Source of the DNA: Rhizobium sp. EC-SD404
GTDB lineage: Bacteria > Pseudomonadota > Alphaproteobacteria > Rhizobiales > Rhizobiaceae
DNA length: 64,000 nt
Reading direction: 5' to 3'
Assembly (NCBI RefSeq): GCF_902498825.1
Contig: NZ_LR701459.1
Coordinates: forward strand, 3,416,564 to 3,480,563
Shown here: positions 17,914 through 58,362 of the stretch, one piece after another
Layout of the letters: each line of letters begins with the position of its first letter
How positions within the stretch are numbered: the stretch's first letter is position 1
Notes under the pieces: model-generated
The model's input: the letters and a program-made list of their open reading frames with translations, nothing else
Databases searched by the model: none
What the model was told of the DNA's origin: nothing
Program-made: the position numbers and the translations under genes

Positions 17914-18594
17914 ATGATCATTCTCGCCCTCGATTCTTCGGCCAATCTTTGCGCCGCGGCTTTTCATGATGCGTCCAGCGACACCACGCTTGGACGTGTC
18001 GTGGAGGATATCGGCCGAGGCCATGCGGAACGGATGATGGCGGTGATCGAAGCGGCACGGGCCGAGGCCGGCATTACTCTCAAACAGATCGATCGGATCG
18101 CCGTGACGGTTGGCCCTGGCTCGTTCACGGGCATCCGCGTGGGTGTCGCGACCGCGCGCGGGCTGGCGCTGGCGCTTGGCCGCCCTTCCGTCGGCGTTAC
18201 GACCCTGGAGGCTCTGGTCCCAGGAGCTGAGCCCCAAGACACGCCGGTCATGGCCGTTCTCGATGCTCGACGTGACGAAGTGTTCGCGCAAATCTTCGCG
18301 ACCGATGGCACGACGCTGACCGATCCAGCCGCACTGTCCCTGGCGGAAGCGGCGGATCTCGCGACACGCCATGATGCTCGCCTCATGGGATCCGGCGCGC
18401 CTCCCGTCGCTGCCCTGATGGGCCGGCCGGAGCGCGTGATCTCCGAAGCTGGCATGGTCGAGATTCTGGACGTCGCCCGCATCGGCGCGCGCAAGCCCGC
18501 TGGCGCGCCACCGGCCCCGCTCTATCTGCGGTCGCCCGATGCCAAGCCGCAGGAAGCCTATCTCCTGGCGCGGCAGGAGCGGTTGGCCCAATGA
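17914..18594 (+). CDS. tsaB: tRNA threonylcarbamoyladenosine synthesis protein TsaB
   Basis: Non-catalytic partner of TsaD in making t6A37 on ANN-decoding tRNAs. The 226 residues have the ASKHA-fold start IILALDSSANLCAAAF and the strong family motif VGPGSFTGIRVGVATARGLA. TsaD and TsaE are not in the window. It starts the long conserved Rhizobiales block running to trmB, and its stop overlaps the rimI start by four bases. Confidence 0.93.
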   Translation: MIILALDSSANLCAAAFHDASSDTTLGRVVEDIGRGHAERMMAVIEAARAEAGITLKQIDRIAVTVGPGSFTGIRVGVATARGLALALGRPSVGVTTLEALVPGAEPQDTPVMAVLDARRDEVFAQIFATDGTTLTDPAALSLAEAADLATRHDARLMGSGAPPVAALMGRPERVISEAGMVEILDVARIGARKPAGAPPAPLYLRSPDAKPQEAYLLARQERLAQ

Positions 18595-19082
18595 TCGGTG
18601 GCTTCTTCACCCGCACCGCCGACGTCGAGATCGTGCCGATGGAGCCATCCGATTGCGACCGCGCGGCCGAGCTTCACGGCGCAAGCTTTTCGCGTCCCTG
18701 GAGCGCCGACGAAATCGACGTACTCCTGACGCAAACCAACGTGCACGGTTTCGTCGCGCGTCAGTCGCCTTCTGGACGCGGATCCTTTGCCGGCTTCATA
18801 TTGCTGCGCACCGCTGCCGACGAAGCCGAAGTGCTGACGATTGCGGTGCGCGAGCGATTCCGCAGCCAGGGGATCGGCTGGCGGCTGATGCTTGCCGGCA
18901 TCCGGCAGATGCGCCAGGAAGGCGTCGCCTCGATCTTTCTCGAGGTCGATGCGGGCAACCTGCCGGCAGTTGCGCTTTACCGGCGCCTCGGCTTCATCAA
19001 GGTCGGCGAACGCGAGGCCTATTACAAGGCTGCCGATGGCCGCCGGACGACGGCGCTTGTCATGCGGCTTGATCTGATTTAG
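18591..19082 (+). CDS. rimI: Ribosomal protein S18-alanine N-acetyltransferase RimI
   Basis: A GNAT enzyme of 163 residues. The acetyl-CoA loop is RERFRSQGIGWRLM, followed by IFLEVDAGNLPAVALYRRLG and the RimI-like GEREAYY. Coupling to tsaB by ATGA overlap is the standard genomic context for RimI. The substrate is expected to be the N-terminus of S18, although rhizobial RimI may also act on other N-termini. Confidence 0.92.
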   Translation: MIGGFFTRTADVEIVPMEPSDCDRAAELHGASFSRPWSADEIDVLLTQTNVHGFVARQSPSGRGSFAGFILLRTAADEAEVLTIAVRERFRSQGIGWRLMLAGIRQMRQEGVASIFLEVDAGNLPAVALYRRLGFIKVGEREAYYKAADGRRTTALVMRLDLI

Positions 19083-45430: not shown

Positions 45431-46132
45431 ATGACCGACGACACGAAGAAGACGACCGACTCCACGAAGCAGGACAGCGCCAACGAGGGCATGGAAGAAG
45501 CGGTGAAAGCTGCGGAATCCGCGTTCGATGAGCCCGATGATGGGTATGACGACGGCGCGCCGGATAATTCCGAAGCGATCGCCATCCTCGTCGACGGATT
45601 GAAGGCCGAGAATGCCGATCTCAAGGATCGCTATCTCCGCCTTGCCGCCGACATGGACAATCTGCGCCGCCGCACTGAACGCGACGTCAAGGATGCGCGC
45701 TCCTATTCGATCGCCAATTTCGCGCGCGACATGCTGGCCGTATCCGATAATCTGCGTCGTGCGCTCGATGCCATTCCCGCGGAATCCCGCGAAGCAGGCG
45801 ACGATGGTTTCAAGGCGCTCGTCGAAGGCGTCGAGATGACCGAGCGCGCCATGCTGTCGACGCTCGAACGCCATGGCGTCACGAAGCAGAAGCCGGAGGG
45901 TCAGCGCTTCGATCCGAATTTCCACCAGGCGATGTTCGAAATCCCGAACCCCGACGTGCCGAACAACACCGTCATGCAGGTCGTCCAGGATGGCTACGTG
46001 ATCGGCGAACGCGTTCTGCGCCCGGCCATGGTCGGCGTTGCCAAGGGCGGCCCGAAGCAGCCGGTGGAACCGAAGCCGGATGCCGGTGCGGAACCAGGCG
46101 CACCAAACGGCGAAGCCGAGCGGGACGCTTAA
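45431..46132 (+). CDS. grpE: Nucleotide exchange factor GrpE
   Basis: Releases ADP from DnaK. The 233 residues comprise an acidic unstructured N-terminus (about 1-60), a long coiled coil ([19 protein letters not shown]) and a beta domain ([40 protein letters not shown]). The C-terminal tail is proline- and glutamate-rich. The ATG at 45431 has no strong ribosome-binding site. It is normally next to hrcA in rhizobia; here hrcA is 10 kb away on the other strand. Confidence 0.96.
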
Positions 46133-51057: not shown

Positions 51058-52272
51058 ATGATCGACCTAGCCCTTCTTTCACAGCCGCTTTTCCGGATCG
51101 GCGCCTACGACGTCAGCATCGGGATGACGCTTGCGGCGGCGCTCGCCGTGCTGGCCATCGTTTGGATCTGGCGCGCTGCCGCGCGCCGTGCGGAGCGCGC
51201 CGAGCTGGTGCATGCGGCGGAGGAGAGCGAGCAGCGGCTTGCCGAAATCCTCAAGGCGCAATCGGAAATGCAGGGTCGCATGGCGACGATGGCGGAGCTT
51301 TTCGGCGCACGACAGGCGGAACTCAACCAGTCGATCCAGCAACGGCTCGACGGCATGACGCAGCGCCTGGGAACGACGCTCACCGAACAGACGCGCTCGA
51401 CGCACGAGAATCTCACGAAGTTGCAGGAACGTCTGGCCGTCATCGACACGGCGCAGAACAACATCCAGTCGCTTGCCAAGGATGTCGTCGGGCTGCAGGC
51501 AATCCTGTCCAACAAGCAGACGCGCGGGGCGTTCGGCCAGTCGCGCATGGAAACGATCATCGCCGATGCGCTGCCGATGGGCAGCTATACGTTCCAGGCC
51601 ACGCTCTCCAACAATCAACGGCCCGACTGCCTGATCCATATGCCGAACGGCCAGCCGGCGCTGGCCATTGACGCCAAGTTCCCGCTCGAAGCGTGGCATG
51701 CCATCCGCGCGGCGGAGAATGCGGACGCGGCGAAGCCGGCCGCTCAGCAGTTTCGCCGTGACATGGACGTTCATATCAGGGCTATTTCGGAGAAATATCT
51801 GATCAAGGGCGAGACGCAGGATACGGCGTTTCTCTTCGTGCCGTCGGAATCGATCTTCGCCGAGATCCACGAGAATTTCGAGGAGATCGTCCAGCGTGCC
51901 CATCGAGCCCGCGTGGTCATCGTATCGCCCTCGCTCCTGATGCTGTCGATCCAAGTGGTGCAGGCGATATTGCGCGACCAGCGCATGCGCGAACAGGCGC
52001 ATCTCATCCAGGGCGAAGTGGCGAAGCTGATGATCGATCTGACGCGGCTGGATCAGCGCGTGCGCAGCCTGCAAACCCATTTCGGCCAGACGCAGAAGGA
52101 CATCGACCAGATCGTCACCTCGACCGACAAGCTGGCGAGGCGCGGCGCGCGGATCGAAGCGCTGGAATTGGAAGCACCAGGTGCCGACACTGCGCAGCCA
52201 GCCACCGAGCCGACCCATGCGGTCGAGAGCCGCACAGGATCGTTGCGGCTGCGCGTGGTGGAAGAAGACTGA
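51058..52272 (+). CDS. rmuC: DNA recombination protein RmuC homologue
   Basis: A 404-residue RmuC-family protein: N-terminal transmembrane helix (about 20-38), a long coiled coil (about 45-150, QQRLDGMTQRLGTTLTEQTR) and the RmuC domain with a PD-(D/E)XK-like core (PDCLIHMPNGQPALAIDAKF). It limits short-inversion recombination in E. coli and has recently been linked to anti-plasmid or DNA-damage functions in some species. The ATG at 51058 has TAGGA seven bases upstream. Confidence 0.93.
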   Translation: MIDLALLSQPLFRIGAYDVSIGMTLAAALAVLAIVWIWRAAARRAERAELVHAAEESEQRLAEILKAQSEMQGRMATMAELFGARQAELNQSIQQRLDGMTQRLGTTLTEQTRSTHENLTKLQERLAVIDTAQNNIQSLAKDVVGLQAILSNKQTRGAFGQSRMETIIADALPMGSYTFQATLSNNQRPDCLIHMPNGQPALAIDAKFPLEAWHAIRAAENADAAKPAAQQFRRDMDVHIRAISEKYLIKGETQDTAFLFVPSESIFAEIHENFEEIVQRAHRARVVIVSPSLLMLSIQVVQAILRDQRMREQAHLIQGEVAKLMIDLTRLDQRVRSLQTHFGQTQKDIDQIVTSTDKLARRGARIEALELEAPGADTAQPATEPTHAVESRTGSLRLRVVEED

Positions 52273-52340
52273 CACCCCCTTGCCGGCTCGACCGAAAAAG
52301 GCAGAGTGGCCGGCGCATTCAAGCGGGAGACAGTCAGGGC

Positions 52341-53255
52341 ATGATCACCGTCGTCGGCTCCATCAACATTGACCTCATCGCCAACGTGGCGCGGTTGCCG
52401 AAACCGGGCGAGACGCTGGCCGGCACTGCCTTCACCACGGCGGCCGGCGGCAAGGGCGCAAACCAGGCGCTGGCCGCAAGGCGCGCCGGTGCCGAAGTGG
52501 CGATGGTCGGCGCCGTCGGCGCTGATGCGTTCGCCGAAGAAGCGCTTGCACTTCTGGCCGCCGCTAAGACCGATCTCAGCGCCATCGCCCATGTCGAAGG
52601 CGCTACCGGCATCGCCTCGATTCTGGTCGGAGCCGAAGATGGCGACAATGTCATTGTGGTCGTCGCCGGCGCCAATGGAGAAGTCGGCGCGGATGCGGCG
52701 AAAGCTGCCGTCGACCGGATGGGCAAGCACGATACGCTGCTTCTGCAGATGGAAATACCAGCGCCTGCGATCGAAGCGGCGCTGCAGGCGGCGCAGGCAC
52801 AGGGTGTGCGCAGCATCCTCAATGTCGCCCCGCTGACCGAGGATGCGATCGCGCTCGCGCCGCTGGCCGGCATCGTGATCGCCAATGAAACGGAATTCGC
52901 GCTGCTCTGCCGGGCAAAAGACCAGTCTGCGGCTGAGCGTAAGGATGCGATGCAGACCATGAGCCGAGACCGCCACCAGACGATCATCGTGACGCTTGGC
53001 GCCGAAGGCGTGATCGCCTTTCACGAGGGCCGGATGCATCGCGTGCAGGGGCTGTCGATCAAGCCCGTCGACACGGTCGGCGCGGGCGACACGTTCTGCG
53101 GCTATCTCGCAACCGGCCTCGATGCCGGTCTGAATTTCGAGCTGGCTCTCAGGCGCGCGGCCGTTGCCGGCAGCCTCGCCTGCCTCAAGCCCGGCGCCCA
53201 GCCCTCGATCCCGCTTCACTCGGACGTCGATGCCGCGCTAGCCGATAGCCGATAA
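52341..53255 (+). CDS. rbsK: Ribokinase
   Basis: Phosphorylates ribose to ribose-5-phosphate. The 304 residues show ITVVGSINIDLIANVARLP at the N-terminus, the PfkB motif TTAAGGKGANQALAARRAGA and the catalytic DTVGAGDTFCGYLATGLDAG. No rbs transporter is adjacent, so ribose more likely comes from nucleoside breakdown (nucleoside hydrolase at 3.7 kb). It converges on the ATP-grasp gene with eight bases between stops. Confidence 0.93.
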   Translation: MITVVGSINIDLIANVARLPKPGETLAGTAFTTAAGGKGANQALAARRAGAEVAMVGAVGADAFAEEALALLAAAKTDLSAIAHVEGATGIASILVGAEDGDNVIVVVAGANGEVGADAAKAAVDRMGKHDTLLLQMEIPAPAIEAALQAAQAQGVRSILNVAPLTEDAIALAPLAGIVIANETEFALLCRAKDQSAAERKDAMQTMSRDRHQTIIVTLGAEGVIAFHEGRMHRVQGLSIKPVDTVGAGDTFCGYLATGLDAGLNFELALRRAAVAGSLACLKPGAQPSIPLHSDVDAALADSR

Positions 53256-53263
53256 ACCCCCGT

Positions 53264-54718
53264 TCAATTGTCGAGGCGCTCCAGGAACCAGTTGGTCAGC
53301 CGGGTCCAGACTTCGTCCTTCTCGGCAAAATCCTCGACGCCATGTTCGAGGTTGGGGTTGTCGTTGACCTCGATCACGAAGACGCCGTCGTCGGTTTCCT
53401 TGAGATCGACGCCGTAGAACCCGTCGCCGATGCAGCGCGCGGCCCGCAGGCCCGTGTCGACCACCAGCGGCGGCGCAGATGCCAGCGAGAAGGCCCGGAA
53501 GCCGCCTTCCAAAGGCTTGCCGCCGGTATCGTGCTTGATGATCTGCCAGTGTTCCTTGGCCATCAGGTACTGCACGGCGAACAGCGGCTTTCCGCCGAGC
53601 ACGCCGATGCGCCAGTCATAGTCCGTCGGCATGAATTTCTGCGCCAGCAGCAGGTCGGAATCCTCAAGCCAGGTCGTTGCGAGCGTCTTCAGCTCGGCGA
53701 GAGACCCCACCTTGGAAACGCCGCGCGAGAACGAGGAGTCCGGGATCTTGAGAACCATCGGAAACCCAAGAAGATCGGCGGCGCGCTGCAGATCGTCGGT
53801 GCCGGCGATCATAACGGTCTTCGGCACGGGAATGCCGTTCCCGGCCATCAGTTCGTCGAGATAGACCTTGTTGGTGCAGCGGATCATCGACACCGGATCG
53901 TCGATGACCGGCATGCCTTCCTGCTGGGCACGGCGCGCGAACCGATATGTGTGGTTGGAGATCGACGTCGTTTCGCGGATGAAGAGCGCATCGTAGTTGG
54001 CGAGCCGCGACAGGTCGCGCTTGCCGATTGGCTCCACTTCCACGCCCATGCGCGCAGCGATGCGCGCCCAGTGCTTCAGGCTTGATATCGAGGATGGCGG
54101 CAGCGCTTCATTGGCATCGACGAGGGTGGCGAAGGTGTATCTGGCTGGCGTCTTGGCCTTGGCGTCGCGCCACTGCCGGCCCGTGTAGCGGTTGAGGCAT
54201 TCGAAAAAGAAGGCGCGCTCCTTGTCGGAGAGCTTGGTCACCGAGCCGAGCGCCACCTTCGGGATCGACAGCCATGCGCCATTGTCCTTGATCGTGACTT
54301 CCACGAAAGGCGCGCGAAACCAGTCGAATACGAGGCGGGCGAAGCGTTCCAGGCGCTGGTCGGCCGTATAGCCGAAGAAGATGTTGAGCCGGGTTGGCCG
54401 CTCGCCTGCCTTGGCGCAAACCTTGTTCAGCGTATCCTCGAGCTCGGGGATCGCGTTTTCGTAGAGCTTGCGCGCCGACAGGTCGATGATCGTCTCGACC
54501 GACGGGATCACGCGCTGGCCGCGCGCGCCGGCGAGCAGCGAGGCGTAATAGCCACGGCTCTGATAGCGATAGGATCGCGCCAGGTTGATGATGTTCGGGC
54601 GGGAGCCCCGGAACAGCTCGGGCCGCGCGAGGTAGTCGCGGGTCGCAAGCACTTTGTGGGAGGTCGCCGCATGATCGATATCGTTCATGCGGGACGACAG
54701 GATCACCCAGTTGAACAT
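53264..54718 (-). CDS. RimK-like ATP-grasp ligase with N-terminal RLAN domain
   Basis: A 484-residue predicted peptide or amide ligase. Residues about 8-190 match the RLAN domain (RimK-like ATP-grasp N-terminal: FRGSRPNIINLARSYRYQSR, then GYYASLLAGARGQRVIP). The ATP-grasp domain covers about 280-470, with the phosphate loop KIPDSSFSRGVSKV (324-337), GVDLKETDDGVF and the metal-binding VIEVNDNPNLEHGVED (448-463). Such enzymes join a carboxylate to an amine via acyl phosphate. The ATG overlaps the stop of the GNAT-C39 gene (TGATG). From memory, the Pfam RLAN entry states that this neighbour is almost constant and suggests peptide synthesis. The substrate is unknown. Confidence 0.9.
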   Translation of the reverse strand: MFNWVILSSRMNDIDHAATSHKVLATRDYLARPELFRGSRPNIINLARSYRYQSRGYYASLLAGARGQRVIPSVETIIDLSARKLYENAIPELEDTLNKVCAKAGERPTRLNIFFGYTADQRLERFARLVFDWFRAPFVEVTIKDNGAWLSIPKVALGSVTKLSDKERAFFFECLNRYTGRQWRDAKAKTPARYTFATLVDANEALPPSSISSLKHWARIAARMGVEVEPIGKRDLSRLANYDALFIRETTSISNHTYRFARRAQQEGMPVIDDPVSMIRCTNKVYLDELMAGNGIPVPKTVMIAGTDDLQRAADLLGFPMVLKIPDSSFSRGVSKVGSLAELKTLATTWLEDSDLLLAQKFMPTDYDWRIGVLGGKPLFAVQYLMAKEHWQIIKHDTGGKPLEGGFRAFSLASAPPLVVDTGLRAARCIGDGFYGVDLKETDDGVFVIEVNDNPNLEHGVEDFAEKDEVWTRLTNWFLERLDN

Positions 54719-55827
54719 CAGGTACGTCTGCCTTTCAGGATCACCGCGGCGCGCAGATTGGAGCGGCCGAAACGGGTGATGCGATCGAATATGTCGTAGG
54801 GAACCGGCAGGTTGGACGCGTCCGACGCCGTCTCGGACGTTTTCTCTTCCACCCACGGATCGTTGAGAATCAGGTGCCGACCATCGTCACCATGCACGAG
54901 CACCCAGTGCGGCACCTTCTTGCCGAACATGTAATAGCCGGAGATCAAGACGATGGCCGAATGGCCCCGTTCGATCGCAGCCCGGATCGTATGCAGCGAA
55001 GCGGCAAAATTGAGGACGGGAATGGCTGCCTCTTCCACCCGACGCCGAAAATCGCGCTGGGCCAGTTCCATGACCTGGCGCTTTTCCAGGTTTCGGACCG
55101 TGTCGAGGAATAGAACGTTGGTATCGGTGACGTAAATCTCCGGCTCGAGCCCATAGGCATGGGCCGTGACGGCGAGGCCGAACGGCTCGCAGCCGCCCAT
55201 GCCCGACATCATGAAGACCGTCGTCGCTTCGCGCCAGAAGCGGATTTCCCAGACCGGATCCAGATAATCGCGCGAAACATAGCGCGCGAGCGCCATGTTG
55301 AGGCAGGCGGCGCCGCAGGTAAAATCCGTCGTCTGCTCGTAAAACGGCGTTTCGTAGTCCTGATGCTCGTCGTCCCGCAGGCGCTTCTCGAAGCGCAAGG
55401 CGCGGCTGTGGTCCTCGTAATAATCCTCGTAGACGCCGATGCGGCGATATCCCGACCGCTTATAGAGCGATATCGCCGGCATGTTGTCCTCGCGCACCTC
55501 AAGGCGCAGGAGGAAGCGATCATGCTGCTTGGCGGCCTCCTCGGCCTTGGCGAGCAGCGCCTTGCCGACACCCTGTCCCTTTGCGTCGGGCGCCACGCCG
55601 ATCGAATACAGGCGGGCGAGGCCGGTGCCCTTGCGAAACAAAAGCATCGCATAACCGACGATGCGGCTTGCCTCGTCCTGCGCGACGATCGTCTCGGCCG
55701 TCGGCCGGTTGATCAGCGCGCGGAAGGAGCGTCTTGAAATCCGGTCCGTGGTGAAGACGGCATTTTCGATGGCGAGAAGGGCATCGATGTCATCGTGGGT
55801 GGCGGGACGTATCCGCAGAGCGGACAT
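54718..55827 (-). CDS. GNAT acetyltransferase fused to C39/papain-like peptidase, partner of RLAN ligase
   Basis: A 369-residue fusion. The GNAT domain (about 1-150) has the acetyl-CoA loop APDAKGQGVGKALLAKAEEA and EDNMPAISLYKRSGY. The peptidase domain (about 160-369) has a probable catalytic Cys171 in TTDFTCGAACLNMAL, His307 in KKVPHWVLVHGDD and Asp323 in LILNDPW, the C39/papain pattern. There is no signal peptide or ABC part, so it acts in the cytoplasm. The ATG at 55827 has GGAAG seven bases upstream. It is coupled to the downstream ATP-grasp gene and lies 122 bases after hrcA. Confidence 0.9.
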   Translation of the reverse strand: MSALRIRPATHDDIDALLAIENAVFTTDRISRRSFRALINRPTAETIVAQDEASRIVGYAMLLFRKGTGLARLYSIGVAPDAKGQGVGKALLAKAEEAAKQHDRFLLRLEVREDNMPAISLYKRSGYRRIGVYEDYYEDHSRALRFEKRLRDDEHQDYETPFYEQTTDFTCGAACLNMALARYVSRDYLDPVWEIRFWREATTVFMMSGMGGCEPFGLAVTAHAYGLEPEIYVTDTNVLFLDTVRNLEKRQVMELAQRDFRRRVEEAAIPVLNFAASLHTIRAAIERGHSAIVLISGYYMFGKKVPHWVLVHGDDGRHLILNDPWVEEKTSETASDASNLPVPYDIFDRITRFGRSNLRAAVILKGRRT

Positions 55828-55949
55828 GGGAACACTTCCAAAAGGTGCGCCGTGTGGGGCACGGCTGCTTTGCATGGCCGGACCATATCACCGCCTGACC
55901 GACCGGCGAAATGGCCAAAGGCAGCTGCCAGATCAAAGATTTGCCGAGG

Positions 55950-57140
55950 TCACCGCATCATCTTCGACACGAGCTGGGCGGTATAATCGACCATCGGGAC
56001 GATCCGGGCATAGTTCAGCCGCGTGGGCCCGATCACGCCGACGGCGCCGACGACGCGCGCTTCGCTGTCGCGATAGGGCGCGACGATGAGCGACGAGCCC
56101 GACAGCGAGAAAAGCTTGTTTTCCGAGCCAATGAAGATGCGGACCCCGGAGCCTTCCTCGGCCAGCGTCATCAGCTGGACGAGGCTGTCCTTCTTCTCGA
56201 GCTCATCGAACAGAAGCCGCAACCGCTCGATGTCCTCGCTGCCCGAAACGCTGTCGAGCAGATTGGCGCGGCCGCGCACGATAAGCTGGGCGGGCTGGTC
56301 CTTGCCGCTGCCCGACCAGACGGCGAGCCCCCTGGAGACGAGATCCTGACTGAGCTCGTCCAGCTCGCGGGAAACTTCCAGTTTCAGTTTTTCCAGCTCG
56401 CGGCGCACTTCCGGGATCGTGCGGCCGGCGAGATGGGCGTTGAGGAAGTTCGAGGCCTCGGTCAGCTGCGATGCCGTCGTGCCGACCGGCAGGTCCAGGA
56501 TGCGGTTTTCGATATGGTCGTGCTCGCCGACCAGGACGGCGAGCGCCCGCGTCGGGTCCAGCCGGATGAATTCGATGTGCTTCAGCACCGTGTCGGATTT
56601 AGCTGCGATTACGAGACCTGCGCCGCGCGACAGACCAGACAGCATCTGGCTCGCATCGGTCAGAAGGTTCTCGACCGTCTGGTCGCGATCGCGGTGGGTC
56701 TGGCGGATCTGCGTCTCGATCTGCACCCGCTCGTCGTCGGACAGGGCGCCCGCCTGCATGAAGGCATCGACGAAGAAGCGCAGCCCCTGCTGGGTTGGCA
56801 GCCGTCCGGCCGAGATATGCGGCGCATAGATGAGGCCGAGATGCTCGAGATCGCTCATCACGTTGCGCACGGATGCGGGCGAAAGCGCCATGGGCAGGAT
56901 GCGCGACAGATTCCGCGACCCGACAGGCTCGCCGGATTCCAGGTACGACTCGACGATGCGTCGGAAAATCTCGCCGGTCCGGTCGTCAAGCGCTCCCGAC
57001 AGGGACCCTGATCCGGGCAGGGATGCAGAGCCTTGGCTGAGCTTTGGCGTCTTGGAGAAGCTGTTCACGTTGGTGGTCGACTCCGTGCCATTCGTCTTCA
57101 GATATAGTGTCTCCGTGCACCGGACGGAAGAGAGGCGCAT
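55950..57140 (-). CDS. hrcA: Heat-inducible transcription repressor HrcA
   Basis: Represses groESL and other chaperone genes by binding CIRCE operators. The recognisable protein starts near [20 protein letters not shown], with the winged-helix motif [20 protein letters not shown] and [18 protein letters not shown]. It ends with a GAF-like domain ([20 protein letters not shown]). The N-terminal about 50 residues are low-complexity and the start is uncertain; a GTG near residue 24 is an alternative. It is divergent from rph. grpE, the usual partner, is elsewhere, and no CIRCE was seen in the window. Confidence 0.93.
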
Positions 57141-57220
57141 CCTGTGCCATCAGGCTTTTCCTTTGCAAGCAGGCTTTGCCGACGATAGAAGGCAGCCAAC
57201 TTGATCAGCAGGAGCTCCCA

Positions 57221-57940
57221 ATGCGACCTTCAGGGCGGAAGCCAGACCAGATGCGCGCCGTTTCCTTCGAGCGGAACTTCTCAAAGCATGCCGAAGGCTC
57301 GTGTCTCGTGAAATTCGGCGATACGCATGTGCTGTGCACCGCATCGCTTGAAGAGCGGGTTCCGCCGTGGTTGCGCAATGCCGGTCGCGGCTGGGTCACG
57401 GCCGAATACGGCATGCTGCCCCGCGCCACCGGCGAACGCATGCGACGCGAGGCCGCTTCCGGCAAGCAGGGCGGGCGCACCGTCGAAATCCAGCGCCTCA
57501 TCGGCCGCTCGCTGCGCGCCGTCGTCAATTTGGAAGCTTTGGGCGAGCGCCAGATCTCGATCGATTGCGACGTGATCCAGGCCGATGGCGGCACGCGCAC
57601 CGCTTCTATCACCGGTGCCTGGGTTGCCCTCCACGATTGCCTCAAATGGATGGAAGCACGCAGCATGGTGAAGACCGATCGCGTGCTGAAGGACCATGTG
57701 GCGGCCGTTTCCTGCGGCATCTTCGCCAGCCAGCCGGTCATCGACCTCGACTATCTGGAAGATTCCGCAGCCGACACCGACGCCAATTTCGTCATGACCG
57801 CCTCGGGCGGCATCGTCGAGATTCAGGGCACGGCGGAAAAGGACCCGTTCTCGCAGGACGAGTTCCAGACGCTGATGAGCCTCGCGCGCGCCGGCATCGA
57901 CGATCTTGTCGGCATGCAGAAGGCTGCGATCGGCGCATGA
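57221..57940 (+). CDS. rph: Ribonuclease PH
   Basis: Phosphorolytic 3-prime exoribonuclease that trims tRNA precursors. The 239 residues open [20 protein letters not shown] and include [17 protein letters not shown] and [20 protein letters not shown], all RNase PH signatures. AGGAG lies six bases before the ATG at 57221, which rules out a longer frame. The stop overlaps the start of the VOC-family gene. Confidence 0.97.
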
Positions 57941-58362
57941 CGAACGGGCCCGCCGCACCTTCGGCAATCCTGGAATCGGCGCTCTATGCCGACGATCTGG
58001 AACGCGCGGAGGCATTTTACGGCGGGATCCTCGGGCTTGAGAAGATCGTGGATGTCGCAGGACGCCACGTCTTCTTCCGCTGTGGTGCCGGCGTTCTGCT
58101 GATCTTCAATCCGGAAGCGACGCAGAAACCCTCTGATAATCCGAGCATGCCGGTCCCGCCCCACGGCACGACCGGCCAGGGCCATCTCTGTTTTTCGGCC
58201 AGTGCCGACGAAATCGAGGGCTGGGTGATGCATCTGAGTGCGAACGGCGTCGCCATCGAGGTCGATTTTCACTGGCCGAATGGCGGCCGATCCATCTATT
58301 TCCGCGATCCTGCCGGCAACAGCCTGGAATTTGCGGAACCCAAGATCTGGGGAATTGCATGA
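57937..58362 (+). CDS. VOC-superfamily (glyoxalase/bleomycin resistance-like) protein
   Basis: A 141-residue protein made of one vicinal-oxygen-chelate unit of two beta-alpha-beta-beta-beta modules: [35 protein letters not shown] and [21 protein letters not shown] late glutamate and a central histidine could bind metal. The reaction is unknown. It is wedged between rph and rdgB with four-base overlaps at both ends, an arrangement I remember from other rhizobia. Confidence 0.87.

Follow-up and report, generated by a model that had tools for sequence, protein, structure and literature searches.

The 64,000-nucleotide stretch of Rhizobium sp. EC-SD404 analysed here (the window; contig NZ_LR701459.1, positions 3,416,564 to 3,480,563) carries two adjoining genes, one encoding a GNAT acetyltransferase fused to a C39-like cysteine peptidase of the DUF3335 family (GNAT-C39), and the other a ligase formed by an RLAN domain and a RimK-type ATP-grasp domain. 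These genes represent a real, widespread enzyme module, in which the GNAT and the ligase are the constant unit and the peptidase is an optional add-on. The protein families and the GNAT-DUF3335 fusion were already catalogued in Pfam and in a passage of PMC10318531, where DUF3335 is described as frequently fused to GNAT; the present result is the acetyltransferase-ligase pair as the core, with the peptidase as an option. The features of the pair, in window coordinates, are the following:

54718..55827 (-): GNAT-DUF3335 fusion gene (GNAT-C39), 369 residues; alternative start at 55875
55363..55827 (-): GNAT domain, N-alpha-acetyltransferase-like, residues 1-155; profile and structure matches
54721..55353 (-): DUF3335/C39-like, papain-like peptidase domain, residues about 160-369; profile and conserved residues
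54716..54720 (-): TGATG junction, in which the GNAT-C39 stop TGA and the ligase start ATG have one base in common
53264..54718 (-): RLAN-domain RimK-type ATP-grasp ligase, 484 residues; RLAN at 27-173, ATP-grasp at about 194-484

Domains and catalytic residues

The domain calls of a preliminary description of this DNA, i.e., GNAT plus a C39/papain-like peptidase and RLAN plus a RimK-type ATP-grasp, are borne out by the profiles. GNAT-C39 scores 65 bits with PF00583 (GNAT; cut-off 20.7) and 250 bits with PF11814 (DUF3335, 'Peptidase_C39 like'; cut-off 25), and is therefore a member of this last family; with the transporter-type C39 family PF03412 it stays below the cut-off (16.2 bits versus 22). 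The catalytic triad Cys171-His307-Asp323 that had been proposed is indeed in place: counting from the start at 55827, C, H and D occupy these three positions. Among 79 fused relatives Q165, C171 and H307 are kept in all, and D323 is conserved in 77 and replaced by E in 2. A sequence search for solved-structure relatives of the peptidase half gave none that was convincing (best E 0.07), and the structure match list for GNAT-C39 was occupied by GNATs.

Profile and structure matches place the GNAT half nearest to N-alpha-acetyltransferases. Residues E110 and Y137 are kept in all 116 GNATs, whether fused or stand-alone, and the family signature formed by D28 and R72-L-Y-S75 is nearly as constant (D28 in 114, R72 in 113, Y74 in 113 and S75 in 114 of the 116); the stand-alone GNATs carry the same signature as the fused ones. 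Of the earlier suggestion that this domain caps or aminoacylates, acetylation stands, and aminoacylation is less likely given the resemblance to N-alpha-acetyltransferases. With the RimI equivalog TIGR01575, GNAT-C39 scored 85.1 bits (cut-off 86.4), a value that was 87.8 when the whole genome was scanned. At window positions 17914-19082 (+) a gene that we take to be tsaB is followed, with a four-base overlap, by another rimI candidate of 87.0 bits; the presence of this candidate suggests that the GNAT of the pair is a RimI paralogue.

The ligase belongs to the RLAN family (PF14401, 152 bits, cut-off 25, residues 27-173), with the RimK-type ATP-grasp domain located C-terminal to RLAN. Its residues K284, K324, D438, E450 and N452 are invariant across 46 aligned sequences, and its closest folds are LysX, ArgX and RimK; the match list for its N-terminal RLAN domain (1-190) was occupied by ATP-grasp matches. 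It scores below the cut-offs of the RimK/LysX equivalog or subfamily models (NF007764, 34.1 versus 331 bits; TIGR02144, 81.9 versus 275.6; TIGR00768, 82.8 versus 143.4). Its closest named relatives are from Rhizobium albus and Georhizobium, with 98% identity. The TGATG overlap between both genes was described correctly, since TGA and ATG share one base, and it suggests that their translation may be coupled.

The constant core and the optional peptidase

The distribution of both families was surveyed by profile matches to RLAN and DUF3335 in 398 Pseudomonadota genomes. RLAN was found in 72 and DUF3335 in 58; 57 genomes have both, 15 of the 72 RLAN genomes have no detected DUF3335, a single one has DUF3335 only, and 325 lack both (Fisher p 1e-53, without correction for relatedness). 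Where both occur, the matches are no more than 4 kb apart in 55 of 57 genomes. Hence the GNAT-C39 and ligase genes are linked, and not by chance; the co-occurrence on which the preliminary description depended is thus clear, RLAN being present in all but one of the 58 DUF3335 genomes. The genome G058 has two RLAN ligases, one next to GNAT-C39 and the other next to a stand-alone GNAT (loci L077 and L100), and G062 and G146 have two RLAN matches each. The control genome of Methanosarcina acetivorans has DUF3335 above the cut-off and no RLAN match.

The composition of the module was then read from 118 RLAN loci, of which 38, including the window, came from the survey (40 stretches of up to 20 kb) and 80 were named loci, e.g., those of Mesorhizobium ciceri WSM1271 and Azospirillum brasilense HAMBI_3172, the latter set being the best 80 of at least 588 relatives, so that the nearest kin weigh most; the 118 hold 116 different ligase sequences. 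A GNAT of this family lies within 2.5 kb of RLAN in 116 of the 118 loci, fused to DUF3335 in 79 and stand-alone in 37, and two loci have neither form. Three of those counted as fused (L106, L130 and L180) are, by their coordinates, cut or mis-started fused genes; the fused locus L073 has in addition a stand-alone GNAT directly adjoining the ligase. The domains, the conserved catalytic residues, the near-constant pairing of GNAT and ligase and the optional presence of the peptidase are all direct observations. It had been proposed that the pair in this genome is the minimal form; however, the smaller form is a stand-alone GNAT plus the ligase, as seen in 37 of 118 loci.

In the 116 pairs, the GNAT gene precedes the ligase gene on the same strand in 91, the genes are divergent in 17, the ligase comes first in 6, and they are convergent in 2. 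A four-base overlap between the GNAT stop and the nearest ligase start was detected in 24 of 61 fused and in 14 of 30 GNAT-only tandems; with these last cases, coupling is also seen where the peptidase is missing.

A quick tree of the ligase, which carries a program warning of long branches, shows 14 changes of the peptidase state, of which 11 are forced by starred branches, versus 32 in shuffles. Changes are seen among the kin of the window, e.g., in Chelativorans (L125-127), Nitratireductor aquimarinus (L129) and L107. A partner swap between stand-alone and fused GNATs was hinted at by the tree of the GNAT (150 columns, few supported branches) and was not demonstrated: the one clade tested was not rejected (approximately unbiased test, AU, p 0.23).

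Proposed function and neighbouring genes

Tentatively, and at close to an even chance, we read the pair as a module of two enzymes that synthesises, in the cytoplasm, a small peptide or isopeptide carrying an N-acetyl group; the earlier idea that a peptide is likely to be made, by a RimK-type ligase together with an acetylating GNAT, is supported. The RLAN ATP-grasp ligase would use ATP to activate a carboxylate and couple it to the amine group of an amino acid, the RimI/Ard1-like GNAT would move the acetyl group from acetyl-CoA onto the alpha-amine of the substrate or of the product, and the fused papain-like cysteine peptidase present in many lineages would hydrolyse the product or an intermediate, and so set its level. 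Given that the peptidase is repeatedly absent, a role in turnover fits better than an essential step. Every one of these chemical steps is our inference, as are their order, the substrates and the choice of a free metabolite over a protein target. No product of this enzyme pair is named in the open-access literature searched. A broader proposal, which we consider possible but rather unlikely, is that in a sizeable fraction of Pseudomonadota the GNAT-RLAN module supplies a hitherto undescribed N-acetylated peptide as a metabolite, its level set by a fused peptidase that each lineage keeps or drops, as a second route to N-acetyl-peptide solutes beside the N-acetylglutaminylglutamine synthetase (Ngg) system. 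With an acetyltransferase-ligase core and a peptidase add-on, what was a vague 'peptide synthesis cluster' can be approached by an assay of two enzymes, the genetic prediction is clear, and strains that naturally have or lack the peptidase are available for comparison.

The genes around the pair were clustered in 41 regions (40 plus the window): the ligase appeared in 36 and GNAT-C39 in 29, followed by a small GNAT (7), a LysR-type regulator (6) and a Na/Ca exchanger (5). No third gene is constant in these regions, the regulator and the exchanger included, and standing alone is therefore usual for the pair; the earlier statement that the pair stands alone is true for this window, but it is nothing special. 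The families of the flanking genes were counted in 125 of 147 listed genes, considering the 25 commonest Pfam families. The GCS2-like ligase, M20 peptidase and ferredoxin that some relatives were said to carry are absent from these 25 families, below which occasional cases are possible. Likewise, no carrier gene, amidotransferase or common transporter was found among the recurrent neighbours of the pair, and a scan of 10 proteins gave no support to the guess that several loci have a general-stress regulator next to it.

Ion-transport families are present in the 125 flanking genes (Na/Ca exchanger 5, Na/H exchanger 3, TrkA 3, CorA 2). The Na/Ca exchanger lies no more than two genes from the pair at L069, L070, L075, L089 and L097, and three of these loci (L070, L075 and L097) are syntenic and come from a single genus. 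In a random draw of 125 distal control genes (out of 305), the 25 commonest families include neither exchanger, and the same applies to 137 flanking genes at other loci (137 scanned of 155 genes, from 45 of the 80 named loci), where MscS was found in 3; single cases below these 25-family lists are not visible.

If the pair matured a ribosomal peptide, the peptidase would cut a precursor, the ligase would crosslink or extend it, and the GNAT would cap it; papers on such clusters (PMC8939145, PMC7823629) are reported to name both ATP-grasp ligases and C39. However, 3241 small open reading frames of 20-90 residues lie no more than 1.5 kb from the 116 pairs, and the 12 largest groups listed are all limited to close kin (the two largest comprise 16 loci each, from a Mesorhizobium-like cluster), which is not the recurrent precursor expected for ribosomally made modified peptides, and 37 of the 118 loci have no peptidase beside the ligase. 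This explanation is thus very improbable, and the central role as a precursor trimmer once given to the peptidase is not supported, for the same reasons.

Two loci have DUF3335 proteins with no recognised GNAT domain. At L098 (9620-10321), in the only surveyed genome with DUF3335 and without RLAN, a 233-residue stand-alone protein lies among genes that look to us like citric-acid-cycle genes. At L099 (5133-15397, genome G197) two such proteins lie on either side of an oligopeptide-type ABC transporter (SBP_bac_5, oligo_HPY). Both contexts fit a small-peptide hydrolase. The copies flanking the transporter also speak for detoxification or salvage, in which the GNAT and the ligase would inactivate an incoming amine or peptide that the peptidase degrades; on the other hand, these copies lack a recognised GNAT, that 20-kb stretch has no RLAN, and the loci of the pair have no common transporter, so that we find this explanation improbable.

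In the window itself the pair is flanked by genes that we presume to be housekeeping, i.e., hrcA, rph and rdgB upstream and a ribokinase-like gene downstream. No grpE follows the gene that we take to be hrcA (55950-57140, (-)); the single GrpE match of the genome is at 45584-46045 (+), approximately 10 kb away on the other strand. Scans for RNA families matched no riboswitch or other RNA in window positions 52000-58000 (E up to 1), and only three tRNAs at gathering scores in 12 of the 80 named loci. One promoter-like site (0.7 expected) and six terminator-like sites (2.3 expected) were found, and were not used as evidence. None of the PADLOC defence models matched either protein (E up to 0.01).

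Comparison with known systems

The Ngg system resembles the pair in having a GNAT, an ATP-grasp ligase and a peptidase nearby (N-acetylglutaminylglutamine synthetase TIGR03103, with AsnO and an M42 peptidase), and, according to passages of PMC8070244, acetylation and ligation yield there an N-acetylated dipeptide, the precursor of an osmolyte, without the ribosome. In contrast with the two separate genes of the pair, Ngg combines GNAT and ligase in a single chain, and the peptidase there belongs to the M42 family. The pair could be a variant or accessory of this amide osmolyte pathway, given that the two activities are in principle the same, and that in genome G006 (L189, G006:C1:234000-253900) GNAT-C39 comes 1.7 kb downstream of the Ngg trio TIGR03104/TIGR03103/TIGR03106 with no called gene in between, the ligase of this genome being elsewhere, beside a stand-alone GNAT. 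However, GNAT-C39 reaches only 32 bits with TIGR03103, over the GNAT half, versus 569, and this model does not appear for the ligase among the families listed (25 of 38); the pair shows neither significant co-occurrence with Ngg nor exclusion, and an amidotransferase is not among its recurrent neighbours. This relationship is accordingly unlikely.

Several observations weigh against a peptide-making acetyltransferase-ligase core. The Ngg neighbourhood is a single case, since of 48 genomes in that order DUF3335 is in 2 and the Ngg-system peptidase in 10, and RLAN does not track Ngg, which occurs in 9 of 72 RLAN genomes versus 27 of 326 without (p 0.26). Two loci, L082 (G193) and L171, the latter from a Sulfuricurvum bin, have RLAN without an adjacent GNAT; in the genome of L082, GNAT-C39 is on another contig (L083). 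The GNAT tree clusters most stand-alone GNATs apart from the fused ones, with 3 changes versus 14 in the ligase tree, which may reflect an exchange of partner genes rather than simple loss, or different substrates. The locus counts are not an even sample (80 nearest named loci, two identical row pairs), and the hint of ion transport in the flanks is unreplicated. Finally, RimI, Ard1 and RimK act on proteins, and by analogy a protein target would fit the same homologies.

In that case the ligase would extend the C-terminus of a protein, as RimK does on S6, or a carrier, as LysX/ArgX do on LysW, the GNAT would acetylate the N-terminus, and the peptidase would remove the tag. The closest folds, RimK, LysX/ArgX with LysW, and RimI, all act on proteins, and a balance of ligase and peptidase exists for RimK and RimB, the latter a retropepsin-like peptidase, according to passages of PMC12239564. 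On the other side, with no constant third gene in the 41 clustered regions the target would be encoded elsewhere, and the genome has another rimI after tsaB; we consider protein modification rather unlikely. As compared with these systems, RimK chains (S6 polyglutamylation) align only to the part of the ligase that follows RLAN, the ligase of the window having 34 bits versus 331 with NF007764, and, unlike LysX/ArgX with LysW, no carrier gene recurs beside the pair (TIGR02144, 82 versus 276 bits). With the RimI/Ard1/NatA N-alpha-acetyltransferases the GNAT has in common the fold and the Glu and Tyr positions, and it differs by the RLYS plus D28 signature and its fusion or adjacency to a ligase, besides the other rimI next to tsaB.

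Glutathionylspermidine synthetase/amidase also pairs an ATP-grasp ligase with a papain-like amidase, which reverses the reaction of the ligase; it differs from the pair in that the amidase is of the CHAP type, the ATP-grasp is of another type and there is no GNAT. The Rlo operon of Pseudomonas (RloABC) likewise joins an ATP-grasp protein with a peptidase; PA1766-PA1768 of P. aeruginosa, considered as a studied relative, was rejected, as the literature identifies it as the rlo operon, with a different ligase. Returning to the N-acetylated peptide as the product, the pair is not the N-acetylglutaminylglutamine synthetase, but by analogy it would follow the logic of that enzyme split over two genes.
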